23,384 nucleotides of DNA from a virus, in the IMG/VR virus record IMGVR_UViG_3300047494_000280, positions 1 to 23,384 of that record, one strand, 5' to 3'. This document shows, piece after piece, positions 896-21,356 of this stretch. The notes beneath the pieces were generated by a model that searched no databases, was not told the origin of the DNA, and saw only the letters and a program-made list of their open reading frames with translations. Position numbers and translations under genes: made by a program. Position 1 is the stretch's first letter, and each line of letters starts with the position of its first letter.

Positions 896-1141
896 ATGCA
901 TTTTTTAGCTAGCGAGCACATGGCCCTCATATTTTTCTTGCCCAAGCTCCCCAGCAATGGTAGCTACTTCTCTATACTAGAGGGGCTGACGTGCAGCACT
1001 GCTGTGGCAGATGCGACATCCGAGGCGCGCCGTATGACGTTATCCCTATCTTGGTATAGCGATGGTCGGAGCAGACCTTATTTGAATTTTATTTTTTGCT
1101 CGCTAAGGTGTCCTCAGCGATATCCAAGATGCCAGCGTTGA
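896..1141 (+). CDS. Small ORF, possible degenerate terminase small subunit
   Basis: An 81-codon ORF lies directly upstream of the large terminase and overlaps its ATG by 13 bases, the usual place and coupling for a small terminase subunit, which recognises phage DNA for packaging. Residues about 26-66 (FSILEGLTCSTAVADATSEA, then a stretch with WYSDGRSRPYL) loosely recall the helix-turn-helix pattern F-L--L---SV--A---A-----Y-WR--D--F of small terminases. The rest is Phe- and Cys-rich and atypical, no good ribosome binding site precedes the ATG, and the family's usual acidic C-terminus is absent. It may be a decayed gene, a truncated one or chance. I rely on position more than on sequence. Confidence 0.27.
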   Translation: MHFLASEHMALIFFLPKLPSNGSYFSILEGLTCSTAVADATSEARRMTLSLSWYSDGRSRPYLNFIFCSLRCPQRYPRCQR

Positions 1142-2550
1142 GTCGCCAGCCGATAGAGACTAAATTCGAAACAGCTCTCCGACAATCACTCAGAAGTAGT
1201 TTAAACAATTGGGCTAGTTTTGTCGTATCACGCACGGGCCAGCGACCTGCAGCTCACCATCGCCTGCTGCTAGCAAACCTCGAGAAGATAAGCGTCGGCG
1301 AAATCGACCGTCTTATGGTTCTCATGCCACCCGGATCTGCCAAATCGACTTACGCGTCTATAATATTTCCTTCATGGTGGTTTGTTCATCACCCGCGAAC
1401 GGCTGTCATTGGGGCATCTCATACCGCCGATCTTGCTAGGCGTTTTAGCCGACGTGTACGGGATACCATTAGTCAGCACGGTGGTCGTATAGGTTACGGA
1501 ATATCATCATCAGATCGCGCTGCTGCACAATGGACAACTACTACAGGCGGTGAATACTACTCTGCTGGAACTAGAGGGACGCTTATCGGACGCCGCGCTG
1601 ATCTTGTTGTCATAGACGACCCTGTCAAGTCGCAGTTTGAGGCCGACAGCCCCTTAATGCGTGAGCGAGTCTGGGATTGGTATCAGTCTGATGTAATGAC
1701 AAGACTGAAACCTCATGCACGGATTCTCTTGATTATGACGCGTTGGCATCAAGACGATCTTGGCGGCCGGTTGCTCGAGGGCAATGCGTCGGAGTGGACA
1801 ATACTTCGCCTACCAGCTTTAGCGGAGGATGGAGATCCGCTTGGCAGGGAGCCAGGCAGCCCTCTTTGGCCGGCTTGGGAGGATGCGAATGCGCTGGATC
1901 GGAAGAGGCGATCTATGGGCGAGCGTACATGGGCAGCCTTATTTCAGCAATCACCACAGCCACCGGCCGGTAGTATATTTGATGTATCGAAGCTAAACAT
2001 AAAGAGCGAACTCGCTAATGATCCGAATAATATTATCGTCCGTGCTTGGGATTTAGCCGCAACAGCCCCTACTGGCATGAATGACCCTGACTGGACAGTA
2101 GGGCTGAAACTCGCGAAGACTGACGATGACACATACATTGTCGTCGACGTCGTTCGCCTGCGCGGTCTACCTCATGAAGTAGAGCAAGCAATCTTACAGA
2201 CTGCGGACCAGGATGGGCAAGCTGTACGTATTGGTTTGCCGGTGGACCCGGGACAGGCTGGAAAGAGTCAGGTTGCTAATCTAACGCGCCGACTAAGCGG
2301 ATACCATGTCGTCTCGTCCAGAGAAATTGGCTCAAAATCAGCTAGGGCAGCGCCAGTCGCCTCGCAATGGAATATAGGGAACATTGCTATCATTCGATCA
2401 AAATGGAACCATGCATTCGTTACGGAATTGCGCGATTTCCCTTCAGGGTCGAAAGATGATCACGTTGATGCGCTTGCGCGAGCGTTCGGATTGATCAATG
2501 TATCATCACGCCAAGCCCGAATATTGAGGGTTCCATTTATCATGAGGTAG
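1129..2550 (+). CDS. terL: Phage terminase large subunit
   Basis: This is the motor and nuclease that pumps DNA into the procapsid at the portal. Counting from the ATG at 1129 (473 aa), the ATPase half has Walker A PPGSAKST at 67-74, Walker B LVVIDD at 159-164 and the coupling motif MTRWHQDD at 203-210. The RNase-H-like nuclease half has acidic residues at D308 (RAWDLAATAP), D373 (PVDPGQAGKS) and D444/D447 (DDHVDALA). All expected catalytic residues are present and length is normal. The start is uncertain: the frame is open back to a TTG at 1096 and neither start has a clear ribosome binding site. I prefer the ATG because it overlaps the end of the preceding ORF. The gene opens the head module and appears functional. 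Confidence 0.95.
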   Translation: MPALSRQPIETKFETALRQSLRSSLNNWASFVVSRTGQRPAAHHRLLLANLEKISVGEIDRLMVLMPPGSAKSTYASIIFPSWWFVHHPRTAVIGASHTADLARRFSRRVRDTISQHGGRIGYGISSSDRAAAQWTTTTGGEYYSAGTRGTLIGRRADLVVIDDPVKSQFEADSPLMRERVWDWYQSDVMTRLKPHARILLIMTRWHQDDLGGRLLEGNASEWTILRLPALAEDGDPLGREPGSPLWPAWEDANALDRKRRSMGERTWAALFQQSPQPPAGSIFDVSKLNIKSELANDPNNIIVRAWDLAATAPTGMNDPDWTVGLKLAKTDDDTYIVVDVVRLRGLPHEVEQAILQTADQDGQAVRIGLPVDPGQAGKSQVANLTRRLSGYHVVSSREIGSKSARAAPVASQWNIGNIAIIRSKWNHAFVTELRDFPSGSKDDHVDALARAFGLINVSSRQARILRVPFIMR

Positions 2551-2612
2551 CTAGGGAACCGGCTGGAATTAGGAACGGCAATAGACACCAATCTCATCCC
2601 GTAGGCTGCCAA

Positions 2613-4034
2613 ATGTTCGAAACGATCTGCAGGCTCATACCGCAAGATGATGACTACCCGCCTCGTGTAAGAGTACTCGACATCTTAGCGAGAGTGTTGG
2701 AAGGTCGTCTATATGATGTGCTACCTTATGAATTTCACCAGGAGCGTTCGTTAAGCGGCGAATACATACCTTTGCGCAGCCGAAGACCTAATGTCCGTTA
2801 CCCCCTGGCAAGACTAGTCGTAGAAGATAGTGTATCCTTACTATTTAGTGAAGCGCATTTTCCGCAGTTCGGATGTCCAGACAAGTACCTTCAATCCTTA
2901 TTCTCTAGCATCTCCAAAGAACTCCGTTTGAACCTTGTAATGACGGAGGCGGCTGTAAAAGGTTCTGTCGGTTCAGTCGCCATCTTGATGCGGGTGTTAC
3001 AGGGACGTCTATTTGTAGAACCAATGGCGACAACTTTTTTAACCGCCATGTGGAACCCGTGCTGTCCAGATGCGCTGTCGGTTGTGCGTGAAGCATACAA
3101 GGTCTCTGGTCGAATGCTAACTGCCAACGGCTATGCGGTTTCTGACCCAAATTCGATGTATTGGTTTGTTAGGCAGTGGGATACCGATGCGGAAACGTGG
3201 TTTAACCCTTCACTTGTCGCAGATGGGCCGCCTACTACGATAGATCATGCACGAACCGTACGCCACCGCCTCGGATTTGTTCCGGTAATTTGGATCAAGA
3301 ACCTGCCCGGGGTCTCGTCCACGGGAGACAGGAACGACGGGGCATGCACGTTTCGTGCCGCTATCGAAAGTCAGATCGAAATTGAATATCAATTAAGTCA
3401 AGCAGGCAGAGGGCTAAAATACAGTAGTGATCCCACCTTACTGATAAAGGAGCCAGCAGCATCAGAATCCGAGATCATCAAGGGCTCTGGCAATGCTCTA
3501 GTGGTGACAGAAAGGGGCGATGCTCGTCTACTAGAAATTAATGGTACGGCTTCCGCCGCCGTAGTCGACTATGTGAGGACACTTAGGGAGTTCGCACTTG
3601 AAAGTGTGCATGGTAATCGTGTGAACCCGGAACGACTTGGGGCATCGCAATCCGGGAAAGCAATCGAACTGTTGAATCAGGGCTTGGTATGGCTCTCAGA
3701 CAACCTGAGGATCACCTACGGCGAGATAGCGCTATTAGAACTAGCTCGTATGATTATTAAGGCTTCGCACGTGTATCAATTAAAAGTCTTTGGACAAGAG
3801 ATTGAGCCTATAAAGATTGATTTACAGATGTCACTGATTTGGCCTCGCTGGTTCCAACCGACGGCAGATGACCGTCAGAAGGACGCTCAAACTGTATTGG
3901 CGTTGTCGAAGTCGGGGTTGATCAGCCGGGAATCGGCGGTCAAATCCATTGCGACAAATTATGATATAGAGGATATCGCCGCAGAGCTTTCGAAAGCTTC
4001 TAAGAGCAGCATTCCCGAGGTTAACAATGAGTGA
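2613..4034 (+). CDS. Phage portal protein (SPP1 gp6-like)
   Basis: A 473-residue protein that would form the dodecameric ring at the capsid vertex through which the terminase threads DNA. Support is position (after the large terminase), length, and a C-terminal half with RVNPERLGASQSGKAIELLN, a version of the SGKAL/SAKAME helix typical of SPP1-gp6-like portals. After it come the LIWPRWFQPTADDRQKDAQT segment and a Ser/Lys-rich tail. N-terminal residues carry YPLARLVVEDSVSLLFSE, the usual first conserved block. The ATG at 2613 has a weak ribosome binding site, and the 62-base gap before it holds no gene. The end overlaps the next gene by eight bases, so translation is probably coupled. Confidence 0.88.
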   Translation: MFETICRLIPQDDDYPPRVRVLDILARVLEGRLYDVLPYEFHQERSLSGEYIPLRSRRPNVRYPLARLVVEDSVSLLFSEAHFPQFGCPDKYLQSLFSSISKELRLNLVMTEAAVKGSVGSVAILMRVLQGRLFVEPMATTFLTAMWNPCCPDALSVVREAYKVSGRMLTANGYAVSDPNSMYWFVRQWDTDAETWFNPSLVADGPPTTIDHARTVRHRLGFVPVIWIKNLPGVSSTGDRNDGACTFRAAIESQIEIEYQLSQAGRGLKYSSDPTLLIKEPAASESEIIKGSGNALVVTERGDARLLEINGTASAAVVDYVRTLREFALESVHGNRVNPERLGASQSGKAIELLNQGLVWLSDNLRITYGEIALLELARMIIKASHVYQLKVFGQEIEPIKIDLQMSLIWPRWFQPTADDRQKDAQTVLALSKSGLISRESAVKSIATNYDIEDIAAELSKASKSSIPEVNNE

Positions 4035-4437
4035 AGTCGCAGTTTGTGAAGTGGACGAAATCGACATAGAGGGTTTAAAGCGCCAGAATGAAGAGCTTGC
4101 TCAGACACTCTTGGAGGTAAGGCAGGATGTGCGCTCGCGGGTCCTGCTGTCAGAGCTAAAAGTGGAGGCAGTTCGCGCAGGTATTATTGATGTCGACTGC
4201 ATAAAAATACTCGATTTAGATCAAATAAATGCCGAGGAGCAGAACATCACGAAGATCGTCGCTCAGCTCATTCGTGATTTTAAGCTCGAGAAACCGTGGT
4301 TATTCCAATCTACATCGTCATCGACGATGGTAGCTCTGCCGTCGGCGGAAGCATCAGCCCAGAGGCGGGTGATGGAAATGACAGATGCTGAATATAGATC
4401 GGCTCGAGCGGAGATGCTTCGCCAGATGTCGTTGTAG
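4027..4437 (+). CDS. Putative capsid scaffolding protein
   Basis: A 136-residue, acidic, mainly helical protein between portal and major capsid genes, the standard place for a scaffold that guides shell assembly and then leaves. Residues about 10-45 (IEGLKRQNEELAQTLLEVRQ and onwards) have coiled-coil heptad character. The middle has VRAGIIDVDCIKILDLDQIN then LIRDFKLEKPWLFQ, which recalls the -AG--D-D-LKLLD- and -L-KPWLF- pattern of phage gp20-like scaffold proteins. The C-terminus has a short helical basic end that could contact the shell. It starts inside the end of the portal gene. No protease is fused or nearby, consistent with a P22-like scaffold that exits without cleavage. The role is inferred from position and pattern. 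Confidence 0.68.
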   Translation: MSEVAVCEVDEIDIEGLKRQNEELAQTLLEVRQDVRSRVLLSELKVEAVRAGIIDVDCIKILDLDQINAEEQNITKIVAQLIRDFKLEKPWLFQSTSSSTMVALPSAEASAQRRVMEMTDAEYRSARAEMLRQMSL

Positions 4438-4517
4438 ACCACTACCTCCCAACATATCCGAACTGTAATTCAAAGCAGTTAGATTGTCTCCAACGATTGG
4501 GCTAACAAGGAACAATT

Positions 4518-5840
4518 ATGTCGATTCAGAACTTTCCACTTGCCCTCCAGCCGATCATCCAGCAAGGGTTCCTCGAACGAGAGTTCGATCAGGCCCTTAG
4601 GTCGAGGTTGGGCTATCGTGCCTGTGCCGACAGGGAACAAATTGCCGTTGGCATAGGTGAAACGATTACCAAGACCAGGGTTGGGTTGAAACCTACGGTC
4701 ACACTCCCGCTCCTTGCTGCGAATAATACCAATCTTGATAACGGGCTGACGCCAACGTCGTGGAATGTTGAGCAGTATACGTTGGGCATGAACCATTATG
4801 CAGCCACTACGGACTTAAACATGGTCACAAGCCGAGTTGGCATCGCTTCTCAGTTTCTTCAAAATGCTTATATTAATGGCGAGCAGGCCGCACGCAGCCT
4901 TGATGAACTAGCGAGGAATGCGTTATTTAACGCATATTTTAGTGGTAACACCCGAATACGGATCACACTAGCGAGTCCAGGATCAACAGTCGCGGTAGAT
5001 GATTTGCGTGGCTTCCAGACGGTCTTCGTGAATGGGGGTCAGCAGCCTGTGAGCAGCACTGTGTCGTTGACCATCACGATAGGTTCGGGCCAATACAACG
5101 TCGTTAGCACGACTGCCGACTTGATAAACCTGTCTACCACGCCTGGGGGAATATCAGGAACTCTCGGTCTTGGAGCAAGCGTATCAGTAATTGACGGAAC
5201 AGCAGGAAACACAGTCCAGGCAAGCAATGCGGCGGTCATTATAAGGCCATCGCAGCGAAGCAACACGACACAACTCGCCGTTACCGATATGCTGAATATG
5301 TCATGCCTACTTGATGCAGTATCGAAGCTCCGGATGAACGCTGTACCCGAGATCGATGGAGTCTACAATTGCTATCTTGATCCCGTCTCCGCCAGGCAAT
5401 TATTTTCTGATCCGGACTTCAAGCAACTGTTTCAGGGTGCGACTTCCGCTAATCAGGTGTTTCATAAGGGGATGACCAACGACTTTCTAGGGCTACGGTT
5501 CATATCAACCACCGAGACATTCGTTCAGCCGCACCCGGTGCTGGCCGCTATGACTGTACGACGTCCTATTGTGTGCGGGAGAGGGGCGCTGGTTGAGGGC
5601 GACTTTGCTGGAATGGCAGCCATGGATGTCGCTCCGGCGGATTCAATTGTTTCAGTTATAGATGGAGTCGCTATGGTGACACGGGAGCCCGTTGACCGGC
5701 TCCAGCAGATTATCGCCCAGTCCTGGTACTGGATTGGTGGGTTCTGTGCTCCTTCAGACATGACAACCAACCCATCCACTGTTCCCACAGCGACAAACGC
5801 CGCTTTTAAACGTGCTGTGATGATCGAGCATATTGGCTGA
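4518..5840 (+). CDS. Major capsid protein (HK97 fold, P22/N4 coat-like)
   Basis: At 440 residues this is the shell subunit. It starts at an ATG with AAGGAA about seven bases upstream, the best such site in the head module, as expected for the most abundant product. The C-terminal half has YNCYLDPVSARQLFSDPDFK, the conserved coat motif of P22/N4-gp56-like capsids, and the N-terminal half has the TLPLLAANNTNLDNGLTPT arm-like segment. Residues about 152-247 form a Thr/Ser/Val-rich beta insertion that interrupts the core, comparable in position to the P22 insertion domain. No N-terminal delta domain is evident, in line with the lack of a protease gene. The last codons overlap the open frame of the next gene. 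Confidence 0.85.
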   Translation: MSIQNFPLALQPIIQQGFLEREFDQALRSRLGYRACADREQIAVGIGETITKTRVGLKPTVTLPLLAANNTNLDNGLTPTSWNVEQYTLGMNHYAATTDLNMVTSRVGIASQFLQNAYINGEQAARSLDELARNALFNAYFSGNTRIRITLASPGSTVAVDDLRGFQTVFVNGGQQPVSSTVSLTITIGSGQYNVVSTTADLINLSTTPGGISGTLGLGASVSVIDGTAGNTVQASNAAVIIRPSQRSNTTQLAVTDMLNMSCLLDAVSKLRMNAVPEIDGVYNCYLDPVSARQLFSDPDFKQLFQGATSANQVFHKGMTNDFLGLRFISTTETFVQPHPVLAAMTVRRPIVCGRGALVEGDFAGMAAMDVAPADSIVSVIDGVAMVTREPVDRLQQIIAQSWYWIGGFCAPSDMTTNPSTVPTATNAAFKRAVMIEHIG

Positions 5841-8094: not shown

Positions 8095-9663
8095 ATGCCA
8101 ATTGTCCAGCAGGGCGTCATTAACTCAGCAGCTATTGTTGTGCCTGATTTATACGTCCAGATTGTCCCGCCGCAAAATCTTATACTTAACGGCGTTCCTA
8201 CGAACGTTATTGGAGTAGTGGGCACGTCCTGCTGGGGACCTGTAAACCAACCAATTCTGGTAGGCACAATGGCCGATTATGTTGCGTGTCTTGGACCTGT
8301 TGTGCCCAGGAAGTTCGATATGGGTACTCAGGTTGCGATCGCTGTACAGCAGGGAGCACAAAACTTCCGGTGCGTACGCGTGACCGATGGAACAGACTCA
8401 GCGGCACAAGTCACGATTCCTGGAACAACAATTTCCATTACTGCGCTTTACACAGGTTCCCTTGGCAACTCAATTACCGTAAGTTTACAAGCGGGGTCTC
8501 AGGCCGGCACTTGGCGGATGACCGTCAGCCTTCCTGGTCTTCAGCCCGAGATCTTTGACAATGTCAGCGGATCAGGAGCTGCTTTTTGGCAGGCGCTGGC
8601 GAGGGCAGTAAATCAAGGGCAGGGGGTCTTCAGGGGGCAGTCACAGCTCGTGACAATGAATACAGGCGGGGCAACAGCGCCGCCAGTCAGCGTCAACCTC
8701 GCTCTCGGCTTGGTGGCATCGGGCACGGACGGCGCAATCTCTACCACCTCAATGACACTAGTTGGAGAGGATGGCCCGTCTAGGCGCGGTATGTATGCAC
8801 TCCGAGCCCAAGGCTGCAGTATCGGTGTGTTGGCGGATGCTGACGATTGGACTTGCTGGACGGATCAGGCTACTTTTGGACTGAGCGAAGGTGTATATAT
8901 GATCATGACCGGGCCGTCTGGCCAATCTGTTGAAGATGCTATTAACCTGTTGAGCCAGGCAGGAATAGACAGCTACTCGACAAAATTACTCTTTGGAGAC
9001 TGGCTGTGGTGGTCTGATCAGGCGAACAATGTTGTTCGTCTTGTTTCTCCGCAAGGCTTTGCGGCCGGCCGCCTAGCAAACCTTTCACCCGAGCAGTCTG
9101 GACTTAACAAACAAATCTATGGGGTAATCGGCAGCCAATGGAGCGGGGATCCTGGATCGCCACAGGTAGGCTCCTACTCCAATGCTGATCTTAATGCCCT
9201 ACTGGGCGCCGGGCTCGATTTGATATGTAGACCCCAACCTGGCGGCACTTATTGGGGGCTGCGAGGAGGTCATAACACGTCTTCCATTGTTGGAACTCAT
9301 GGCGACAACTACACGAGACTTACAAATTATATTGCAGCGACGCTTTCTACGGGCATGGGGAGTTATGTAGGACAGGTTGTTAACTCCGACCTGTTCAGAC
9401 AGATACGAGCGACCCTGCTGTCTTTTCTGCAGAATATGCATAACCAGAAGCTTCTTGGCTCGACCGCTACCGACGGGCGTTTACCTTTTAGTGTCATTTG
9501 CGACAGTTCAAACAATCCCCAAAGCCGTACGAGCTTAGGCTACGTTCAGGCGGACGTTCAAATCCAATATCAGTCGATCAATGAAAAATTTATTGTTAAC
9601 CTGGAGGGCGGGCAATCTGTCCAGGTGAGCTCGCAGATATTGCCTACCAGCATCTCATCGTAG
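8095..9663 (+). CDS. Contractile tail sheath protein
   Basis: A 522-residue sheath subunit, which polymerises around the tube and contracts to drive it through the host envelope. The N-terminal region has the signature VIGVVGTSCWGPVNQPILVG followed by the AIAVQQGAQNFRCVRVTDGT block. The C-terminal domain includes NYIAATLSTGMGSYVGQVVN and SFLQNMHNQKLLGS and closes with the conserved strand region VDVQIQYQSINEKFIVNLEG, matching the sheath handshake domain. A long variable middle (about 100-230) is rich in Gly, Ser and Thr and probably lies on the outer surface. ATG 8095 follows GGGAG at suitable spacing. This gene fixes the phage as a myovirus or contractile particle. Confidence 0.93.
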   Translation: MPIVQQGVINSAAIVVPDLYVQIVPPQNLILNGVPTNVIGVVGTSCWGPVNQPILVGTMADYVACLGPVVPRKFDMGTQVAIAVQQGAQNFRCVRVTDGTDSAAQVTIPGTTISITALYTGSLGNSITVSLQAGSQAGTWRMTVSLPGLQPEIFDNVSGSGAAFWQALARAVNQGQGVFRGQSQLVTMNTGGATAPPVSVNLALGLVASGTDGAISTTSMTLVGEDGPSRRGMYALRAQGCSIGVLADADDWTCWTDQATFGLSEGVYMIMTGPSGQSVEDAINLLSQAGIDSYSTKLLFGDWLWWSDQANNVVRLVSPQGFAAGRLANLSPEQSGLNKQIYGVIGSQWSGDPGSPQVGSYSNADLNALLGAGLDLICRPQPGGTYWGLRGGHNTSSIVGTHGDNYTRLTNYIAATLSTGMGSYVGQVVNSDLFRQIRATLLSFLQNMHNQKLLGSTATDGRLPFSVICDSSNNPQSRTSLGYVQADVQIQYQSINEKFIVNLEGGQSVQVSSQILPTSISS

Positions 9664-9672
9664 GAGGACTAT

Positions 9673-10101
9673 TTGTCGGTAGCTACGTTCTCAATTGGGC
9701 GCGACGCACAACTCGTCGTCATAGGTCCGCAAGGTCGCCTTGATCTCAGCTACGTAACCGGTTTCGAAGCGCGGCAATTGACCCAGGCCGTTCGGGTTAG
9801 CAGGCTCGATGGAGTACAGATGGGTACGGAACTTCCCAAAGGCTGGGAGGGAAATTTCGAACTCGAGCGTGGAAATTCGAATGTTGAAGATTTTATTGCG
9901 GCAACTGAGCAAAGTTTTTACAGCGGTACGCTGAATCCAAATTGCACTATGTACCAATACATATCCGAGCCGGACGGCTCAACTTCTACCTATCAATATG
10001 AGAACGTTAGCTTTCGTTTGAGTAGCGCTGGTCAATGGAAAGGCGACAGCAGCGTTAGGCAGAAGCTAGAGTTTTTCGCAGCACGCCGGAGGCGAATCTG
10101 A
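9673..10101 (+). CDS. Tail tube protein
   Basis: A 142-residue protein right after the sheath, the usual place of the tube subunit that stacks as hexameric rings inside the sheath. It starts at TTG 9673 with AGGAGG at 9662-9667, well spaced. Motifs fit small tube proteins of P2/Mu-like tails: DLSYVTGFEARQLTQAVRVS, PKGWEGNFELERGNSNVEDF, and a beta-rich end with YQYENVSFRLSSAGQWKGDS. The stop overlaps the first base of the next ATG (TGATGG), so expression is coupled with the chaperone gene. Length and order agree with the family. Confidence 0.85.
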   Translation: MSVATFSIGRDAQLVVIGPQGRLDLSYVTGFEARQLTQAVRVSRLDGVQMGTELPKGWEGNFELERGNSNVEDFIAATEQSFYSGTLNPNCTMYQYISEPDGSTSTYQYENVSFRLSSAGQWKGDSSVRQKLEFFAARRRRI

Positions 10102-10436
10102 TGGCCTCTATAGGAGAACGAGAGCCCTTTGGCGAAGCCCGGACTACCGTTGACTCGTTGGGACGGGTGCTCACGATCCGAAAACTAACGGTACTTGACC
10201 GGTTGAGGTTATTCAAGGCTGCTGGCCCCGCCTTGGCAGAAAACCATCCGTGGTTTGGTATGGCTATATTGGCCTCGTGTGCTACTGCCATTGACGAAAT
10301 TCCCGTTCCTAAGCCAACAACTGAGGCGCAAATTGAAGCTATCGTTGCACGGCTTGGAGAGGAGGGACTGGCAGCGATAGCAGACGAACTAAACTCGGAG
10401 GAGGATGGCGTCCATGAGGAAAGCGCGGGAAACTAG
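10101..10436 (+). CDS. Tail assembly chaperone, short (G-type) product
   Basis: The 111-residue zero-frame product of a tail assembly chaperone pair, comparable in role to lambda gpG or P2 gpE, which binds the tape measure during tail building. It lies between tube and tape-measure-slot genes, as in almost all long-tailed phages. The N-terminus has REPFGEARTTVDSLGRVLTI and LTVLDRLRLFKAAGPALAEN; the C-terminus is acidic (LNSEEDGVHEESAGN). It ends at TAG 10434-10436, the codon directly after the slippery heptamer. This product needs no frameshift and should be the major one. The tail chaperone role is secure from the frameshift arrangement, even though the sequence of the domain is not strongly diagnostic. 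Confidence 0.85.
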   Translation: MASIGEREPFGEARTTVDSLGRVLTIRKLTVLDRLRLFKAAGPALAENHPWFGMAILASCATAIDEIPVPKPTTEAQIEAIVARLGEEGLAAIADELNSEEDGVHEESAGN

Positions 10437-10603
10437 CCCGGCACCCCGACCTGATTGACTGCTTATACCTTGTCAGGAATGGGGTGCCCTTCGACATCGC
10501 ATTCAATCTCCCGGATGACGAAAGGATTGCCTACGTCATCATTATGGGCATATTTGGCGGCCACTCATTTGACTGGCAGACAATGCGCTGGGACGCTTTC
10601 TGA
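10101..10603 (+). CDS. Tail assembly chaperone, -1 frameshift fusion (GT-type) product
   Basis: A minor 167-residue protein made when ribosomes slip back one base at GGGAAAC (10427-10433). The first 111 residues equal the short product. After the slip the frame reads CTA (10433) onwards for 56 codons: LARHPDLIDCLYLVRNGVPF and so on, closing with GHSFDWQTMRWDAF and TGA at 10601-10603. This extension has no good start codon of its own (a TGA at 10415-10417 closes its frame just upstream), so it is reachable only by shifting. The YLVRNGVPFD-AF-L-D-ER block followed by an aromatic C-terminal FDW...W resembles the downstream part of such chaperones in alphaproteobacterial prophages. It would bind the tape measure and tube. 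Amount made relative to the short form is not known. Confidence 0.85.
10427..10488 (+). promoter_or_regulatory. -1 programmed ribosomal frameshift signal: slippery GGGAAAC plus stem-loop
   Basis: The heptamer G-GGA-AAC at 10427-10433 is in the correct phase for a -1 slip and is followed at once by TAG. Six bases after the heptamer, GGCACCCC (10440-10447) pairs perfectly with GGGGTGCC (10481-10488). Inside that stem, CCTGA (10450-10454) pairs with TCAGG (10473-10477), leaving an apical loop of about 16-18 bases. Spacer length and stem strength suit a stimulatory hairpin. All pairs are read directly from the sequence. Confidence 0.88.
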
Positions 10604-10658: not shown

Positions 10659-11621
10659 GTGATGCCAACATTCGAGAATACACAAGTCCTGACCAGCATT
10701 TCGCTCGCAGAGACCGGCCGCCAAGGGTTGCTGCCATGGAATTCTGCAGCTTATTCGGCTGGTCGGGGGCTGTGGTCACCCGTGCGGATTAAAGCGCCGC
10801 ATCACGTTCGAGAGCCTAGTTTCCGGAACTCAAAGTCTCAATTCGACAAACTGCAATCACCGTTCGCGGCTTTATCAAAGGCAGCAGGTGGTTTGCTTAC
10901 TATGCCTAGCAAATTTCGACGGGGACCATGGTCCGAGAGTCGGTCGATAAAGAATCGGTATGTCGCGGGTAGGACACCCCGGCCTGGCCAAGGTGTCTCG
11001 CTTCAACGGTTAACGACACTAGGGGGGAGACCTGTGGAACAGAATAGTCGAACAATCGGAGAAGCCACTAGTTCTGCGCCTCCTAAGATCATCTCACCTC
11101 GCGCATCAAGGTCTAGTCGTGACCTAATAAACAATGCCATAACGCTTGTTGAGGTGCCTCTGGTGCAGCGGCTGCGTCGAAATGTTGTGTTTAGAGACAA
11201 GTGTCCAGCCATAGATTCAATAATATTGACTAGAACCGGAAAGAGAAGTGCTGGCTTAACAAAATCAAACGACGCTAGCCGTCTGAGGCATGTACTTATC
11301 ACACGTAGATCTTTAACTCCCGGCTACCAAGAACAGTCGGAGGTCACAGTCAATAATAATCTACCGAAACGGCAATGTAATCCGCCTAATCAAAATGATT
11401 CCGATGGCTTTAAGAACCTAGCATCAAGAGACGCACCAAACCTCCAGAACAACAACATGATGAGTCCCATCCTTTCAGGATGTATCATAATTGACGGGAA
11501 CGACCTGAGTAACTGGCTCGATCGGCATCTCGCCGACGTGTTACTCTTGTCTCCAACTGGGACAACGGGTCCTGACGCCCGTCTGACGCCGCCAAGCGCA
11601 GGTTCTTCCCTGGCCTTTTAA
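10659..11621 (+). CDS. Short protein in the tape-measure slot, unusual composition
   Basis: A 320-residue ORF (GTG 10659; ATG 10662 is the next codon) occupies the place where the tape measure protein should lie, between the chaperone pair and the gpU-like gene. It is basic and rich in Arg, Ser, Asn and Pro, with little helical or coiled-coil tendency and no transmembrane stretch, all unlike a normal tape measure, which is long and helical. The last 50 residues differ: GCIIIDGNDLSNWLDRHLAD, then LSPTGTTGPDARLTPPSAGS. This recalls a C-terminal IDG--LG-WL-------P--GTT--D-R--P motif I associate with tape-measure or tail proteins of related prophages. No ribosome binding site is obvious. It may be a very short tape measure, an internally deleted one, or another protein. 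Confidence 0.5.
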   Translation: MMPTFENTQVLTSISLAETGRQGLLPWNSAAYSAGRGLWSPVRIKAPHHVREPSFRNSKSQFDKLQSPFAALSKAAGGLLTMPSKFRRGPWSESRSIKNRYVAGRTPRPGQGVSLQRLTTLGGRPVEQNSRTIGEATSSAPPKIISPRASRSSRDLINNAITLVEVPLVQRLRRNVVFRDKCPAIDSIILTRTGKRSAGLTKSNDASRLRHVLITRRSLTPGYQEQSEVTVNNNLPKRQCNPPNQNDSDGFKNLASRDAPNLQNNNMMSPILSGCIIIDGNDLSNWLDRHLADVLLLSPTGTTGPDARLTPPSAGSSLAF

Positions 11622-11635
11622 GCCGAAGATGGTTC

Positions 11636-11695
11636 ATGGCGTGGTCTTCCTGGTATGAGAGATTTAGTAGATCCGCCAAAGCGGGAGACGTGTAG
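11636..11695 (+). other. 19-codon mini-ORF ending in a TAGTG overlap
   Basis: ATG 11636 opens MAWSSWYERFSRSAKAGDV and closes with TAG at 11693-11695, whose last G is the first base of the GTG start of the next gene. A leader that couples translation to the gpU-like gene would look like this. No ribosome binding site is clear and short frames arise by chance. Confidence 0.22.
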
Positions 11696-12396
11696 TGCGA
11701 CTTGGTTCTATCGAATTCAAAGACTATGAAGTGCCAACCAAAATTAACTTTGGTGGGCGCCAAGTCCTCGCTAGCCATAGACTGGCTGGTGGTCGCCGTG
11801 TCATTGACCTGCTCGGCCCCGATAGCGACGACATTACCTTCTCAGGTACGTTTTCCGGTCATGGAGCCTTGGTTCGCGCAAACGCCGTCGATTCCCTTCG
11901 AAGACGCGGGATTACAACTGTCTTGCTTTGGGACAATATTTCCTACGACGTCGTCGTGAGCGCATTTTCCGCCAGCTTCATGAACCAAACGTGGATACCA
12001 TATAAATGCGCCTGTTCCGTGATACATAAGGCGCCTAATCGTATAGGGAGAGAAACTCTATCTGGCAGTAGCTCGCGGCTTTCTCCCTCCATGCTTTCAA
12101 CAGTCGGAACCCTTATTCAAACATTGCCGGAACTGGCGGGATTATCTGCTAGCCATGAGACAGTAAGTGGTTCAGAATCCTCTTTAAGTGCTATCTTACA
12201 AGCTCAAGCTAGTGTAGTGGTTGCCCTAGCGGCTGCCGCACAACGGTTGACAACGAACTTGGACGTCAACTGTGTGTCTGCAGAGACAGCAATTGCTACC
12301 TTGGCGAACCTCGAGGCTGGTACTCACTCGCTGAGTATGTTGATAGCAGCTCGGTCCTATCTGGGTGCCGCGGCGTCCGGGACTGGGGTGCCTTAA
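11695..12396 (+). CDS. gpU-like tail protein with Ala/Ser-rich C-terminal extension
   Basis: A 233-residue protein starting at GTG 11695. Residues 1-112 (RLGSIEFKDYEVPTKINFGG, RRVIDLLGPDSDDITFSGTF, SLRRRGITTVLLWDNISYDV, then IPYKCACSV) follow the P2 gpU logic: alternating strands with LGP---DITFSG, an LR--G block and a final strand region. gpU-type proteins close the tail or join hub and tube; a DNA-circularization-N-like tail protein is the main alternative. The order tape slot, this gene, gpX-like, gpD-like is the same as in P2, supporting the call. Residues 113-233 are a helical Ala/Ser/Leu-rich extension absent from P2 gpU. Confidence 0.55.
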   Translation: MRLGSIEFKDYEVPTKINFGGRQVLASHRLAGGRRVIDLLGPDSDDITFSGTFSGHGALVRANAVDSLRRRGITTVLLWDNISYDVVVSAFSASFMNQTWIPYKCACSVIHKAPNRIGRETLSGSSSRLSPSMLSTVGTLIQTLPELAGLSASHETVSGSESSLSAILQAQASVVVALAAAAQRLTTNLDVNCVSAETAIATLANLEAGTHSLSMLIAARSYLGAAASGTGVP

Positions 12397-12397
12397 C

Positions 12398-12583
12398 GTG
12401 GGGGTTATCGTCATCAACAATGATAATTTGTTCTCCCTGGCCGCCCGGTTGCTGGGAGATGCGACGATGTGGATTTATATCGCAGAGGTAAATGGCGTCA
12501 AAGATCCGATGGTCCGGAATATGATGACCCTAAACGTCCCATCAACAGGGAACCTGAGAGGAGGGGGGATTGTTTTACAGTAA
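12398..12583 (+). CDS. Tail protein X-like (LysM-type domain)
   Basis: A 61-residue protein of the P2 gpX type, which has a LysM-like fold and joins tube to hub. The core NLFSLAARLLGDATMWIYIA then EVNGVKDPMV is close to the family consensus -LF-IAA--LGDA--W--IA--NG--DP. I place the start at GTG 12398, just after the previous TAA (12394-12396); the frame is open farther upstream but lies inside the preceding gene. The last bases overlap the TTG start of the next gene by 14 bases. Its size is normal for gpX. Confidence 0.78.
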   Translation: MGVIVINNDNLFSLAARLLGDATMWIYIAEVNGVKDPMVRNMMTLNVPSTGNLRGGGIVLQ

Positions 12584-13664
12584 CTCGGCGTCCATCACTA
12601 GACGGCCATCTCTACAAGTATACGCTGACGGCGTCCCGCTGCCAGGTGCCTTTGAAGCTCGCGTATCATCTAATAACTTCTACGGCCCAGACCGATTTTC
12701 GCTTCGTCTCTTACAGGGGTCGTCTCTCAACGGACAGCCCGACTATTTGAAACTGTCTGCTACAACAAACTATCAGATCACCGCGGCTTTAAATGCAGAA
12801 GACGGATTCACGTCGCTTTTCGTCGGGCGGGGCGATTCCTTGGTTTATGACAAGCTCTCCCGAGGAATCCGCATTGATGGGCGGGATCTGTCCGCCGGTT
12901 TGCAAGATAGCCCCTCAAATGATGTATTCCCTAACGTGACGTCGAGTGAGATTGTCACACAAGTGGCGTTACGTCATGCTTTGATACCTATGGCGACACA
13001 GACGATGAATCCTGTTGGCCGCTATTATCACGACGAAACATGTCAGATTTCGTACAGTCAGTTTAATCGCATTACGACGGAGTGGGATCTACTAACGTTC
13101 CTCGCGAGGTGCGAAAACTTTGACTTATTCGTGCGGGGAAGACAGTTATTTTTTCAGCCTGCGACGCCGATTAGCCCGCCTATGTTTTCGATCCGGCCCG
13201 AGAACTTGATTACGCTTCGGTTGAAACGCTATCTCCAAATGTCCGGCGACATAGCGGTTACCGTCAAGAGTTGGAATTCAAAAGCAAATCGGGCTGTCTC
13301 ACAGACCGCTATATCGCGACCGGTGCCTGCAAAGGTTGAAGCGGACTTTGTGTTCACGGCGGTGCCTCTGCATTACAACATTATACAACCGAACCTATCT
13401 GAGGAAAAAGCAAGTAGAGTTGCGCAAATTCGAGTCGGGGAGTTGTCACGTCATGAGCAATCGATTGAATGCACAATGCCAGGTGAATTGGATCTAACGC
13501 CACGCGACAGCTTTACATTAGAGGGTACTGAATCAATATTCGACCGCCAGTATCAAATAGATAAGATCGACCGCACCATTAGCCCTTCTACAGGTTTCAT
13601 TCAACGACTATTTGCTCATAGTATATCAACCCGAGAGGTTGTCCTTTCAGGTGAGGTATCATAA
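12570..13664 (+). CDS. Baseplate hub protein, gpD-like (Mu gpP/gp44 type)
   Basis: A 364-residue late-control-D-like hub protein, which joins the tail tube to the spike; T4 gp27 is the structural counterpart. The start is TTG 12570, preceded by the G-rich GAGGGGGG and overlapping the gpX-like gene by 14 bases. N-terminal pattern: LQVYADGVPLPGAFEARVSS then FYGPDRFSLRL, as in gpD/gpP hubs. Middle: RHALIPMATQTMNPVGRYYH, TTEWDLLTFLARCENFDLFV, typical of the hub's second domain. The rest is beta-rich with AVTVKSWNSKANRAV, a recurrent hub motif. Length and place before the gpV-like spike support the call. It appears complete. Confidence 0.85.
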   Translation: MFYSNSASITRRPSLQVYADGVPLPGAFEARVSSNNFYGPDRFSLRLLQGSSLNGQPDYLKLSATTNYQITAALNAEDGFTSLFVGRGDSLVYDKLSRGIRIDGRDLSAGLQDSPSNDVFPNVTSSEIVTQVALRHALIPMATQTMNPVGRYYHDETCQISYSQFNRITTEWDLLTFLARCENFDLFVRGRQLFFQPATPISPPMFSIRPENLITLRLKRYLQMSGDIAVTVKSWNSKANRAVSQTAISRPVPAKVEADFVFTAVPLHYNIIQPNLSEEKASRVAQIRVGELSRHEQSIECTMPGELDLTPRDSFTLEGTESIFDRQYQIDKIDRTISPSTGFIQRLFAHSISTREVVLSGEVS

Positions 13665-13667
13665 AGG

Positions 13668-14186
13668 GTGGAGCAGGTAGTCAACGCCTTCAAGGGTTAT
13701 GCATCTACGCTTGACCACTTGCAAGGCCCGCCGAGATTGGCAATTGTAGCTTCCGTCGACACAACTTCCACTTGCGTGCGAGTCTTGCATCAACCCGAAG
13801 GCCAACTAAGTGGATGGTTGCCAGTTATCTCGCTTTGGACAGGCAGCGGCTGGGGAATGATCTGCATGCCTAGTCCGGGTGACCAGGTTCTTGTATTATC
13901 GCATGATGGAGATGCAGCAAACGGCGTAGTGTGCGGTGCCCTGTTCTCAGACAATCGTCAAGCTCCCTCGGCGCCACTGGGGGAGTTTTGGCTTGTCCAT
14001 GCCAGTGGAAGCGCCCTAAAGATGTTAAATGACGGCTCGGTGCAAATCCTAGGTGACTTACATGTCACCGGAAATGTATATGACAAGGGGGGCTCTCTTG
14101 CTAGATTGCGTTCGGTTTATAACTCACACACCCACACTGACGCGTTGGGACGCCCGACGTCAGGCCCGACGGAACTGGACGTATGA
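13668..14186 (+). CDS. Baseplate assembly protein V-like spike (Mu gp45 type)
   Basis: A 172-residue trimeric membrane-piercing spike at the tip of the tail. It starts at GTG 13668, three bases after the hub gene's stop. The OB-fold-like N-terminal part has LAIVASVDTTSTCVRVLHQP and WLPVISLWTGSGWGMICMPS, then PGDQVLVLSHDGDAANGVVC, matching gpV/gp45 (-GD-VLV---DGD---GVV-GALF). The tip region has YNSHTHTDALGRPTSGPTEL, the His-containing end at which such spikes usually bind iron through HxH motifs. Metal binding here is inferred from the motif. It overlaps the gpW-like gene by ATGA. Confidence 0.88.
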   Translation: MEQVVNAFKGYASTLDHLQGPPRLAIVASVDTTSTCVRVLHQPEGQLSGWLPVISLWTGSGWGMICMPSPGDQVLVLSHDGDAANGVVCGALFSDNRQAPSAPLGEFWLVHASGSALKMLNDGSVQILGDLHVTGNVYDKGGSLARLRSVYNSHTHTDALGRPTSGPTELDV

Positions 14187-14572
14187 TAGTGGGAGACCTT
14201 CAGCATGAGTGGCGGTCCGATCTTGTCACAAACTCAACAGGAGACTTGGCGCTCACCACGAATGGCCTGCGCGGCCAGCAGCGTCTTCTCAGGCGACTTC
14301 TCACTAACCTCGGCGACTATATCTGGCATCTGGACTACGGGGGCGGCCTTGGCTCCTACGTCGGAGAGTGTGCAGACGTTAGCGGGCTCGCTGCGATCAT
14401 AAAGTCGCAAATGTTGCTCGAGTCGTCGGTGAGCTGGTCCCCGGAGCCGCGAATATCGGTCACTCAGCCGGCACCAGGAGGCGAGTCGCTCTGTGTCCAA
14501 ATACAGTATATGAGCGTTGAGATAAGCATGACAGAGGTATTAGTATTCAGCCTGAACAGTACATCACTATGA
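14183..14572 (+). CDS. Baseplate wedge protein W-like (Mu gp46 type)
   Basis: A 129-residue protein matching the small baseplate wedge subunit (P2 gpW, T4 gp25 relative) that starts sheath assembly at the hub. Conserved pattern: DLALTTNGLRGQQRLLRRLL followed by TNLGDYIWHLDYGGGLGSYV; the IW---YG-GL strand is diagnostic for gp46-like proteins. ATG 14183 overlaps the previous TGA, so translation is coupled, and the end overlaps the next ATG in the same way. Length fits the family and no defect is seen. Confidence 0.87.
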   Translation: MIVGDLQHEWRSDLVTNSTGDLALTTNGLRGQQRLLRRLLTNLGDYIWHLDYGGGLGSYVGECADVSGLAAIIKSQMLLESSVSWSPEPRISVTQPAPGGESLCVQIQYMSVEISMTEVLVFSLNSTSL

Positions 14573-15696
14573 ACCTTAATTTATTGACGTTCGATAGCAT
14601 TGTAGCTAACTCCGCAGCAGCTTTGCAGACGGCGACGTCGGCAGTTATTGACATCAGTGTCGGTTCCATATTTCGGGCGTTATTGGAAGCAAACGCTGCG
14701 ATCTGCCTGTGGATACAATGGCTGATCGTTTGCGTTTTGCGGGCAACCAGAGCATCCACCTCATCGGGGGCTGATCTTGACTCCTGGATGGCCGACTTTG
14801 GATTTACGCGTCTACCGTCGTCGTTTGCAGTGGGAAACGTTACGTTCTCGCGACACTCGGCGCTCATAAACGTCACCATACTCCCGGGCACGCTTGTCAA
14901 AACGTCCGACAATACACAAGCTTTTTGTGTCGTTGCGGACGCTCTTAATGGAGCTTGGAGCACGCAGGCAGGCGGATATGTCTTGGCATCCGGCACAACC
15001 TCTATTGAGGTTCCTGTCATCGCACAAACCGCAGGGAGCACGGGGAACGTCTTGCCACGCAAGATCACCGTAATATCGTCTGCACTCGCTGGAGTGGATC
15101 TCGTAACTAATCAGCTTGCTACAATGAATGGACAGGACGCCGAGACGGATCTGACTGCTCGGAAGCGGTTCGTCCTTTTCATCAATAGCCGGTCGAAGGC
15201 GACAATATCTTCGGTCGAAACGGCTATTTCTGGCGTGCAACAGGGGCTGTCTTACTATGTCTCTGAAAATACGGATTGTAGTAATGAGTATTGTCCTGGA
15301 AGCTTTGTTGTCACGGTTGACGACGGGTCCGGTAATCCCTCGGCTGCACTGCTCAGCGCTGTAAGCGTAGCTGTCGACGCCATACGGCCGGTAGGATCAG
15401 TGTTTAGCGTCCGTCCCCCTGTTGTGCAGCCCGTTACCCTTTCCTTCTCCGTCTTGCTCTCGGCCGATGCAAACCAAGCGGCCGTCCTAGCGGCGGTAGA
15501 AAATGCCGTTACATTGTATATCAATGGCCTATCGATCGGTGCACCTCTACCTATAACGAGGATTGCTCAAGTGGCATATGATTCCGATCCCAGGGTCTTG
15601 AATGTCACCGGCCTCACGTTGAATGGGGCGAGTTCGGATTTGACGCCAACGGTCTCCGAGTTGATAAAGCTTGCCAGCCTGTCGGTGATAGTATGA
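14569..15696 (+). CDS. Baseplate protein J-like (Mu gp47 type)
   Basis: A 375-residue baseplate wedge protein (P2 gpJ, T4 gp6 relative) that forms the ring around the hub. N-terminal pattern: IDISVGSIFRALLEANAAIC, RASTSSGADLDSWMADFGFT. The middle is the beta-rich segment (SSFAVGNVTFSRHSALINVT, LPGTLVKTSDNTQAFCVVAD), and the C-terminal domain has DAETDLTARKRFVLFINSRS, where DAE-D---R--F is the standard J-family motif, then DAIRPVGSVFSVRPPVVQPV. All expected blocks are in order. It overlaps both neighbours by ATGA, placing it in the V-W-J-I coupled block. Confidence 0.92.
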   Translation: MNLNLLTFDSIVANSAAALQTATSAVIDISVGSIFRALLEANAAICLWIQWLIVCVLRATRASTSSGADLDSWMADFGFTRLPSSFAVGNVTFSRHSALINVTILPGTLVKTSDNTQAFCVVADALNGAWSTQAGGYVLASGTTSIEVPVIAQTAGSTGNVLPRKITVISSALAGVDLVTNQLATMNGQDAETDLTARKRFVLFINSRSKATISSVETAISGVQQGLSYYVSENTDCSNEYCPGSFVVTVDDGSGNPSAALLSAVSVAVDAIRPVGSVFSVRPPVVQPVTLSFSVLLSADANQAAVLAAVENAVTLYINGLSIGAPLPITRIAQVAYDSDPRVLNVTGLTLNGASSDLTPTVSELIKLASLSVIV

Positions 15697-16367
15697 CGGG
15701 CGATAAAGATGATATTATCTGGCGGATACGATCGGTAATTCCGACCGGATGGTTTGCAGACCAAAGCCCTGTTTTAGATGCGCTCTTAGCCGGATTTGCA
15801 GCCTCGTGGTGCGGGCTCTATGCCCTTGCCAACTATGCCTTGAAACAAACTCGTATTGGAACTTCCTCTCATTTTTGGCTAGACCTATCAGCTTTTGATT
15901 TTTTTGGTCCTGCTTTGCGGAGGCTACCTGGTCAATCTGATGAAAGCTTCCGGGGGTATATACAAGGTAATTTACTTCGTGAAAAGGCCACTAGGCGTAG
16001 TGTCATCTCGACAGTGGAGAGCCTGACCGGGCGTACGCCGTTAGTTTTTGAGCCTGCATATGGTAGAGATACAGGCTTCTATAGCACTGCCGGGTGCCCG
16101 TTGGATGGCCTGGTATACAATGTTTGTGGAGGTTGGGGAAGTCTTCTACTCCCGTATCAAATCTTCATTACGGCTTATCGCCCAAACCTGGTGGGGGTGG
16201 CGTTTGTTTCTGGGTGGGGATGCCCCTCCGGCGCGTACGGCGCCGGATCTATCGAATATGGCGATATTTTATCCATGGAGGACCAAGTATCAAACGCTAA
16301 AATCCGCGAAACTATTTCTGACGTACTTCCGGTTTCAGTGATTGCATGGACCCGAATCTGCAACTAG
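15693..16367 (+). CDS. Tail protein I-like (Mu gp48 type)
   Basis: A 224-residue baseplate protein after J, where P2 gpI and Mu gp48 are found; it links wedge and fibre. The conserved region is LDLSAFDFFGPALRRLPGQS followed by DESFRGYIQGNLLREKATRR, a well-known gp48/gpI-like pattern (FFG--L-R-GQ-DE-FR--I---LLREKATR). The C-terminal half has Gly-, Trp- and Tyr-rich strands (VCGGWGSLLLPYQIFITAYR), suiting fibre attachment. The start overlaps J by ATGA. No start codon or frame problem is visible. Confidence 0.82.
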   Translation: MTGDKDDIIWRIRSVIPTGWFADQSPVLDALLAGFAASWCGLYALANYALKQTRIGTSSHFWLDLSAFDFFGPALRRLPGQSDESFRGYIQGNLLREKATRRSVISTVESLTGRTPLVFEPAYGRDTGFYSTAGCPLDGLVYNVCGGWGSLLLPYQIFITAYRPNLVGVAFVSGWGCPSGAYGAGSIEYGDILSMEDQVSNAKIRETISDVLPVSVIAWTRICN

Positions 16368-17646: not shown

Positions 17647-17763
17647 ATGTTTGGGCTGAAGGACAAAGTACTGCCGGCATCGCCCTTTCGCGGTGTACCA
17701 GCAATCGTCCATCTCTATCCCCTCAGGAGCGCGTTATGGCAACACCTGTTTCTCATTTCTTGA
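17647..17763 (+). other. 38-codon small ORF between fibre and adaptor
   Basis: ATG 17647 opens MFGLKDKVLPASPFRGVPAI, then VHLYPLRSALWQHLFLIS, ending at TGA 17761-17763 inside the adaptor gene. Otherwise the 100-base gap between the two larger genes would be empty. It has a few hydrophobic residues, no recognised family, and no obvious ribosome binding site. It might be real or chance. Confidence 0.22.
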
Positions 17764-18215
17764 AGCCGAGTTGCGCTCGGATCGTGGTAATCGACAGCTT
17801 TATTGCGGTCCCAAGGGGATCGGAGTGCGTGGCACCGCCTGTACTGAACTGGCCCGCAAAAGATCCGAGTGACGTGCTGGACTATATAATAGAGTTCTCG
17901 CCAGCAGTCATTGGTAACGACGCCGACGGAATCTCTACACTTGATGTTGCCATCACACCCAATGCGCCTGGTGACCTTCTTATGACATCGTCCGGAGGCG
18001 ATGGCACTCGAGGCATTTTATGGTTTTCTGGTGGACAAGCAGGAACAGTTTACGTCGTCACTATACTCGTAAACACCATGAACGGCCGTTCGATCCAAAG
18101 GAGTGTGCTTCTGCCGGTGCTCATGCTTTCGACACCCTCTGTGCCTGCCGCAGCTATTCAAACTTCCGCCGGACTGGTCATTACGGACCAGAATGGAAAC
18201 CCCGTTCTTACGTAA
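17736..18215 (+). CDS. Phage fibre-tail adaptor-like protein
   Basis: A 159-residue beta-rich protein starting at ATG 17736 with AGGAG nine bases upstream. The segment LNWPAKDPSDVLDYIIEFSP matches the W-KDP-DVLDY pattern of proteins annotated as fibre-tail adaptors, which are thought to connect fibres to the baseplate. The rest alternates strands and Gly/Thr turns (SGGDGTRGILWFSGGQAGTV, then YVVTILVNTMNGRSIQRSVL). It is located between two fibre genes, as is usual for these proteins. A role in fibre attachment is inferred from the resemblance and position. The stop is 69 bases upstream of the next fibre gene. Confidence 0.62.
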   Translation: MATPVSHFLKPSCARIVVIDSFIAVPRGSECVAPPVLNWPAKDPSDVLDYIIEFSPAVIGNDADGISTLDVAITPNAPGDLLMTSSGGDGTRGILWFSGGQAGTVYVVTILVNTMNGRSIQRSVLLPVLMLSTPSVPAAAIQTSAGLVITDQNGNPVLT

Positions 18216-21200: not shown

Positions 21201-21356
21201 GGTTCGCTGCCCACTTCGCCTGGGATTGGGGCGAAGGCATTCACGACGAACGGCCGTAAACCGAATGAGGCCGCTGGGGCCGGTTCTGGAGTAGAGGTAT
21301 TCTTTGACGGCGCACGGTGGATCTGTGGATGGAGTGGTGCCCAGGTGCTATCGTAA
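18285..21356 (+). CDS. Long tail fibre with ten ATK-YVD repeats and pectate-lyase-like segment
   Basis: A 1023-residue fibre. Residues 1-121 hold two copies of a small module (MPTIDELAPAVAAADTDEML and SGLPAGNVPSPVDLVAISQA) also found in the last fibre of the window. Residues 156-510 are ten tandem repeats of the type GGSLTGPL-L--DP---LQAATK-YVD, known as tail-fibre repeats that build a trimeric shaft. Residues about 515-560 have PPYNAKVNGTADDTAAFSAA then AIHVPNGV, the usual start of a pectate-lyase-like beta-helix. The chain closes with ATSTPVGTGFTFSNLTSAAV, then a C-terminal KAFTTNGRKPNEAAGAGSGV box with FFDGARWICGW, common at the ends of prophage fibres. ATG 18285 is preceded by GAGGTCCT. 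It is probably the main receptor-binding fibre. Confidence 0.87.
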   Translation: MPTIDELAPAVAAADTDEMLVSQTGITRKITRAQVIAGLQPQLSLNKGYVLGRSSTGTGTVETIAIGSNINLISGTLSANASSFTMSGLPAGNVPSPVDLVAISQAGTEVSVSYSQFVSSLSTVPGVDVSHAVLTPAGSSTPTLLANFASTFLQQSGGSLTGPLILVGSPAVGLAAATKAYVDATAVALLPKTGGSLTGALLLNSDPAIPAQAATKNYTDNLIAGALPKAGGTLLGPVTLSADPTGALHAATKEYVDSRLLRTGDTLAGPLILATAPVLPLQAATKAYIDASIQTALPLNGGTLVGTLILSADPVWPSQASTKTYVDAQVLTSLSKTGGSLTGPIVLAADPALSLQAATKQYVDTRVIRSGDTFSGPLALAADPIVPLQAATKNYVDNQVSSALPRTGGSLLGSVQLAADPVSALQPATKHYVDVQVATAVPTTGGTISGSLSMAAAPVTPASVANKQYVDAQVSLTLPTSGGTIYGPLTLATNPTANLHASTKQYVDSAIKSYDIVNLILPPYNAKVNGTADDTAAFSAAYQAASVNSAIHVPNGVTVLQNPSAWSLPTTKTVKWFVDGTTLPDGTSLASAIPTGGNPASLSLPGIVAGNSASGFEFSRGFSTTADFAVSHSSYVVNHSNGTQAVIANSRTDTMIYNSPNNYVWSGLDRLVWAGVQTPNSTTAAQHVARYAQTIRQSIGTNLSGVALPQPQLWTACLEYRDATGKPSSWANASLTVEMDWIGNGPDDASSRQVQSLVIAQNNTTGAPVEISSVVGVYLGGGSAGHAYRVFNVNIPFSTSILDTTGSQQLAGAAAIRMAAGHAIAFEPTASNTLSFDSSSGTLRWNQGGLSYTVGKGLAVGWANVCTSNTTLPSYLAGNMVFLVGSSSFTVTLPTATSTPVGTGFTFSNLTSAAVTIQPAGSDGIDNGPVILRQSDRYHVVSDGGGTWREVFRTNSVSPRFTGPPVLPSYTVGSLPTSPGIGAKAFTTNGRKPNEAAGAGSGVEVFFDGARWICGWSGAQVLS
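18750..19814 (+). repeat. Ten tandem ATK-YVD fibre repeats (coding)
   Basis: Protein-level repeats of 32-37 residues, each with a G-G/D-T-L-GPL-L stretch followed by ATK-YVD, at residues 156-510 of the long fibre. DNA copies are diverged and not near-identical. Copies 3 and 6 are shortened before the next unit, and copies 4 and 7 begin with RTGDT or RSGDT instead of GG, indicating a three-unit higher period. Confidence 0.9.

Follow-up and report, generated by a model that had tools for sequence, protein, structure and literature searches.

Apparent loss of the helical body from a tape-measure orthologue in contractile-tail modules of Acetobacteraceae

What kind of protein fills the tape-measure slot of a contractile-tail module when the gene in that slot encodes only 320 residues? 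The stretch of DNA analysed here (the window), 23,384 bases long, is an entry of IMG/VR and comprises a head module and a contractile tail (Table 1). The preliminary description placed the gene in the tape-measure slot, and we agree with this placement: sheath, tube and a frameshifting chaperone are located upstream and baseplate genes downstream. As that description had also stated, no second tape-measure candidate is present among the ORFs and profile matches of the window. The slippery heptamer of the chaperone gene occurs in 149 of 153 loci (GGGAAAC in 139), compared with a shuffled expectation of 4.4. In addition, an ORF resembling a transposase (13-504, named by eye) is situated at the module edge, and a fibre-like protein of 1023 aa (18285-21356) contains repeats which read by eye as “QAATKAYVDxxVxxxLPxxGGSLTGPLxLAADP”.

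Table 1. Features of the window around the tape-measure slot and their basis.
Feature	Coordinates	Strand	Basis
Head module: terminase large subunit (Terminase_6N/6C), portal (SPP1_portal)	1096..5840	+	profile matches
Head module, also: 136-aa protein; major capsid protein	within 1096..5840	+	capsid by position
Tail sheath	8095..9663	+	phrog_23, 2e-44
Tail tube	9673..10101	+	phrog_12993, unnamed in PHROGs; by position after sheath
Tail assembly chaperone, 0-frame product	10101..10436	+	phrog_20383, unnamed in PHROGs; position and frameshift
Slippery heptamer GGGAAAC immediately 5' of chaperone stop	10427..10433	+	sequence
Chaperone T-domain, via -1 frameshift	10436..10603	+	tblastx; kept in relatives
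Slot gene, putative shortened tape-measure orthologue	10659..11621	+	320 aa; GTG start, codon 2 = ATG
N-terminal and linker part, residues 1-271	10659..11471	+	AF2 disorder; sequence-free
C-terminal conserved segment, residues 272-311	11472..11591	+	tblastn, AF2 helix 280-296, family HHalign
Gene after slot (presumptive working label “circN”)	11695..12396	+	phrog_21362, unnamed
Small baseplate protein	12365..12583	+	phrog_975, 3e-4
Baseplate hub-like tail protein	12570..13664	+	phrog_52
Baseplate assembly/wedge genes	13668..16367	+	phrog_6142, phrog_6, phrog_26379 (“gpI”); unnamed gene 14183-14572

The composition and charge computed for the slot protein (R 10, S 12, P 8 and N 7%; net charge +21) agree with the initial portrayal of a basic chain of about 320 residues rich in these amino acids. 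AlphaFold2 (AF2), run on a 26-sequence alignment, returned a mean pLDDT of 52.9 and a sole helix at residues 280-296, with the remainder unstructured, while the highest 19-residue Kyte–Doolittle mean is 0.80; the reported lack of a coiled coil and of a membrane segment is thereby confirmed. The protein gave no match in Pfam (E ≤ 1) or PHROG (E ≤ 0.1) and no relative as a direct query of IMG/VR. In tblastn against the other loci, its match was confined to approximately residues 272-311 (best E 1.3e-4), in line with the earlier remark that family likeness is limited to the last 50 or so residues, and there was no significant match to the HMM of the family N-terminal motif MIDAYTIGITLAL (N-motif). 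GC3 provides no clear reading-frame signal in the window. A long α-helical or coiled-coil body is usual for tape measures, although it does not strictly define them; it is absent here as judged from AF2 and composition, and therefore we file the slot protein as a shortened orthologue, or variant, rather than a typical tape measure.

To find relatives, the tube protein and not the slot protein was used as a marker. Its matches comprised 73 IMG/VR loci and a further 79 loci of GTDB genomes, with titles mainly of Acetobacteraceae, Rhodospirillales, Rhodopila, Acidisphaera and Acidisoma, many of them MAGs; later searches covered the best 80 of 537 and the best 80 of 269 tube matches, as well as the best 80 of 246 gpI matches. 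At least 176 loci possess both the T-domain and the family C-terminus (those lacking either are outside this count), and their slot proteins comprise at least 153 distinct forms of 245-571 aa (median 338), identical proteins being counted once, the C-terminus itself having served as a search criterion, and L146 being excluded with its C-terminal ORF of only 145 aa and its N-motif located elsewhere. Judged from these sequences, the short form is the rule for the slot across the family and an old, family-wide state. A deletion peculiar to the window phage was rejected, since its relatives are all short. The internal deletion considered in the preliminary description thus holds insofar as the family keeps both ends without a body, but not as an event in this phage.

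In complete form, the short slot proteins begin with the N-motif and end with a segment of the type “LDG..LGRW..”, joined by a linker that is disordered and rich in Pro, Ala and Ser; in one of them (L035), AF2 placed helices at 3-51, 97-105 and 290-306. The amino acids of the linker vary with locus GC content (114 proteins; Spearman 0.88 for P+A+R+G and -0.85 for N+I+K+Y+F+M), and the window locus has the second lowest GC in this set. The Arg/Ser/Asn-rich look of its linker, compared with the Pro/Ala-rich look elsewhere, is largely due to this dependence. A wrong frame or a decayed gene was rejected on three grounds taken from the relatives: homology, conservation of the reading frame, and dN compared with dS. 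In six pairs of close relatives that lack the N-motif, dN is 0.04-0.11 for the C-terminus versus 0.34-0.73 for the linker, and the substitution pattern demonstrates, at the sequence level, that the ends of the short slot proteins are under purifying selection.

The origin of this family is indicated by phages related via gpI (among the best 80 of 246 matches), in which the corresponding slot encodes proteins of 593-718 aa; 26 of these were aligned, and their Pro content is at most 4.5%. Five of the seven long slot proteins tested match PHROG tape-measure families, the body of one long protein (L322) matches proteins annotated as tape measures in phages of Burkholderia and Acidovorax, and the slot protein of an Alsobacter prophage (609 aa) matches phrog_28 with E 4e-25. 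The profile-profile search proposed earlier was run at the family level, and both ends of the short proteins matched the long ones. For the C-termini (114 short versus 26 long), HHalign gave Prob 98.75, E 1.4e-16 and score 73, compared with a maximal score of 15.6 over 100 column shuffles; for the N-termini (71 short versus the motif-bearing long proteins), Prob 98.0, E 2.4e-13 and score 61.5 were obtained, with a column-shuffle maximum of 19.9 (one of the 100 shuffle values may be stale). With swapped ends, Prob dropped to 0.12 and 0.04. A separate comparison of the short family with phiKX1-like and Alsobacter proteins resulted in Prob 86 and 77 (shuffles 0/200). Because both ends match long tape measures from the same slot, the profile data show the short family, as far as homology can tell, to be a tape-measure orthologue that has lost its body. 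The window protein taken alone reaches E 0.32 against the long C-terminal HMM, its nearest relative (L076) 2e-6; its membership in the family is suggested by a chain of relatives connected through tblastn matches of their C-termini, and by position.

The preliminary description had called for proven tape measures of the same size, or a full tape measure elsewhere in the genome, to be looked for. Homologues of the same size are numerous, with no proven tape measure among them. A full tape measure was not found in 10 of the 13 short-slot genomes; the other three (G001, G003 and G011) have one on a separate contig, accompanied in G001 and G011 by its own sheath gene.

The N-terminal end of the slot protein is connected with a neighbouring gene. 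In many relatives, the slot is preceded by a gp10-like tail-completion gene (gene X; phrog_26/phrog_5, in Alsobacter PF04883). The N-motif is present in 92 of the 153 slot proteins and absent in 61, including that of the window, where gene X is absent too; both features occur together in 64 cases, the motif only in 28, gene X only in one (L101) and neither in 60. A Dollo count on the tube-plus-sheath tree gives 17 losses of the N-motif, with gene X absent in 16 of them, the losses being counted at the tree tips without branch support. In phage 80alpha, the corresponding passages of PMC11661146 describe contacts of the gp10-type tail completion protein with residues 1-37 of the tape-measure protein (TMP), and of the TMP C-termini with the baseplate protein Tal. 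It seems that loss of the head-side partner frees the N-terminus for loss. This co-loss is therefore an independent sign that the slot protein is a tape measure, while the joint absence of both features could in part reflect limited detection of diverged motifs. Of the three parts, the window protein would retain two, the chain and the anchor at its C-terminal end, the tail-completion gene presumably having been lost beforehand. Its C-terminal segment (residues 272-311) is likely the baseplate anchor, and the hub-like protein encoded downstream is the likely partner of this anchor.

We suppose that the slot protein is probably the tape measure of this element, cut down to the parts that are indispensable for a ruler. 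Its C-terminus would be seated in the centre of the assembling baseplate, chaperones from the frameshifting gene located just upstream would coat the chain, and the tube rings would polymerise along it up to its end. In relatives, a short N-terminal helix may dock at the head end, on the gp10-like tail-completion protein, and a C-terminal helix at the baseplate, with a disordered chain between them. According to this scheme, the length of the chain would count, while its sequence and helicity would not.

A “natural experiment” on this point is offered by a clade with seven distinct proteins of exactly 330 aa (L012, L020, L021, L024, L032, L035 and L049), in which length is frozen and sequence almost free. 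Their linkers align without a single gap at an identity of only 23-60%, with linker dN 0.27-0.89 and dS 0.5-1.7, compared with a tube dN of 0.02-0.05 in the pairs computed. Two neighbours of this clade show one insertion each (L026, +7; L011, +9). At one chromosomal locus, three genomes encode slot proteins of 300, 301 and 304 aa with linkers 28-42% identical. Length is less uniform elsewhere: in the most Pro-rich clade, slot proteins vary from 384 to 511 aa at a tube identity of 92-99%, and the window protein (320 aa) differs from that of L076 (334 aa). Hence near-free sequence combined with fixed length is demonstrated, by alignment, in one clade only.

An extended chain spans about 0.31 nm per residue, and in this conformation the slot protein would give the window a tail of about 85-100 nm; this is close to the 75-96 nm which helical relatives of 640 aa predict. 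If this holds, the short forms (median 338 aa) measure about 75-100 nm, as their helical ancestors of about 640 aa do. The helical scale comes from TP901-1 (tail 118 nm, zero-tail intercept 127 aa, 0.146 nm per residue; PMC5099701) and from phiKX1 and phiKX2, whose 742-aa slot proteins accompany tails measuring 98.9 and 95.0 nm, respectively (PMC8566455, Table 1). phiAO1 was left out of the calibration, as its tape measure was not identified. By analogy with these phages, an α-helical slot protein would correspond to a tail of about 28-40 nm. In its full form, the proposal of a disordered, extended-chain tape measure, selected for length but scarcely for its sequence, as part of a gene transfer agent (GTA) of Acetobacteraceae that has a contractile tail and is inherited vertically, is put forward tentatively, and we hold it to be somewhat doubtful.

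The slot protein may instead be an ordinary, very short tape measure whose chain becomes helical once assembled, in which case the particle would bear a mere stub of a tail, some 30-45 nm long. The calibration given above would allow such a tail for 320 aa, and short-tailed phages of acetic acid bacteria do exist, the tail of the A. orleanensis NBRC 3170 phage being given as 46.6 nm. The composition of the family speaks against helicity: median Pro is 12.4% in the short slot proteins versus 3.2% in the long relatives, stretches free of Pro and Gly have a median of 20 residues, and AF2 finds no long helices in the linker. We therefore regard a helical chain as unlikely. The two groups also differ in hydrophobic segments, a 19-residue hydropathy mean of at least 1.6 being reached in 11 of the 153 short and in 18 of the 26 long proteins, so that even the long proteins do not all possess such a segment.

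The ruler function itself might have been abandoned. The slot protein would then survive through its C-terminus, as a plug of the baseplate or a starter of assembly that trails a functionless tail, and the length of the phage tail would be set otherwise or not at all. The C-terminus is the sole part kept in every form (being also the search criterion), the N-terminal anchor was repeatedly lost, and linker length is free in the Pro-rich clade. According to the text extracted from PMC5099701, TP901-1 infectivity requires the N-terminal 154 residues of the TMP together with a hydrophobic region; the window slot protein has neither a hydrophobic region nor the N-terminal family motif, which counts against reading it as a ruler. 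Loss of measurement is, however, difficult to combine with the gap-free linkers of the 330-aa proteins at identities down to 23%, or with the nearly constant lengths at the chromosomal locus mentioned above. Furthermore, a functionless tail is expected to shrink, and no protein below 245 aa was found, the dropped L146 aside. This makes a plug without measuring function quite unlikely, in our opinion, and we retain the shortened tape measure as the preferred reading.

The slot gene has also been moved within the module. In four loci of one subclade (L317, L316, L236 and L244=L318), it lies directly after gpI and encodes proteins of 348, 349, 361 and 362 aa, respectively, and in L236 and L244 the old slot is empty. 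Nine loci (L018, L058, L218, L221, L235, L236, L243, L244 and L245), in which a gap of 494-652 bp separates the tube from the next gene, were at first read as having no tape measure at all; for L236 and L244 this reading was rejected when the gene was found after gpI. Stop-riddled old slots occur in the same clade at L237:3013-3981, L240:963-2015 and L242:10794-11357. In L244, a 55% homologue of window gene 17736-18215, normally located among the fibre genes, is found directly before the sheath (L244:1709-2191). Since the slot gene was kept after moving, it is unlikely to be dead. Decay in a dying prophage, to which the missing integrase, the terminal transposase fragment of the window and these stop-riddled slots might point, is highly improbable given this retention, the open frames in 153 distinct proteins, the constrained C-termini and the intact tube, sheath, portal and capsid genes.

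The chromosomal setting of the relatives suggests that these modules are inherited together with the host. In eight genomes (G003-G009 and G014, comprising R. globiformis, three uncultured Rhodopila, G007, G008, G009 and G014; loci L095, L096, L097, L099, L104, L112, L123 and L134), the whole module occupies the same position in the chromosome and is bordered by host genes that these genomes have in common, 13-29 flanking ORFs being common upstream and 8-27 downstream (1 in comparisons with G008, for which 4 kb was fetched). Two Acidisoma species have the module at another common site, while G001 and G010 have it at other sites. G001 carries the nearest relative of the window, and housekeeping-like genes flank its module on both sides (by eye, glutaminyl-tRNA synthetase upstream and YqgE-like and Der-like genes downstream). 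No integrase (PF00589) was found on the module contigs, save two matches about 48 kb off in the two Acidisoma. Because of the fixed site, the conserved host flanks and the absence of an integrase nearby, the relatives of the window are shown by comparative data to be, most plausibly, vertically inherited, GTA-like head-tail modules with contractile tails; this is read from the relatives, as the window sequence stops at the module. The module of the eight genomes represents a candidate GTA of the myovirus type in Acetobacteraceae.

Some of these modules carry further genes after the tail-fibre genes. A second sheath-like gene of about 636 aa is present in Acidisoma cellulosilyticum (L312:5226-7136; 56% identity to the window sheath) and Acidisoma silvae (L313:5007-6950). 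In Rhodopila globiformis, a 686-aa gene follows the last fibre gene (L304:5326-7386); it is kept in Acidisoma as well as in each of the four Rhodopila modules that were compared, and has no Pfam match.

To our knowledge, all known tape measures read as helical bundles, and their body also aids DNA delivery. In the short family the body was removed, in the window clade together with one anchor, and a nearly sequence-free chain was kept; therefore, measuring length may be separable from acting on the membrane and delivering DNA. The closest known systems are the P2/Mu-type contractile-tail tape measures (phrog_28 and relatives), which occupy the same slot and have homologous N- and C-terminal segments. 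The window protein differs from them in its length (320 aa instead of the 593-718 aa of related phages) and in having a Pro/Ser/Asn-rich disordered chain without a helical body, hydrophobic segment or N-terminal anchor. The slot protein of Komagataeibacter phages phiKX1 and phiKX2 (BCZ76066.1, BCZ76139.1), annotated as hypothetical, is encoded in the same gene order as in the window and resembles the short family in its N-terminal “IEAYEIGVNL” and C-terminal “YLDSDPIAA..TGTAPDP” segments, but it has 742 aa and a full-length body. The TMP of TP901-1 represents a functional analogy, with docking ends and a length-setting middle; according to PMC5099701, it differs in its approximately 937 residues (810 plus the 127 of the intercept), its repeats and its two hydrophobic regions.

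Among the titles and abstract openings listed by searches of the open literature on tape measures and GTAs, none describes a body-less ruler or a contractile, host-inherited particle of Acetobacteraceae, and the excerpted text of PMC9662315 names no contractile GTA and has no Acetobacter or Rhodospirill- term. The fixed chromosomal site points to such a contractile-tailed, host-inherited particle. RcGTA, BaGTA and other GTAs likewise have head-tail genes at a fixed chromosomal site with no integrase nearby; from these known agents the putative particle would be distinguished by its contractile tail and its Acetobacteraceae host.
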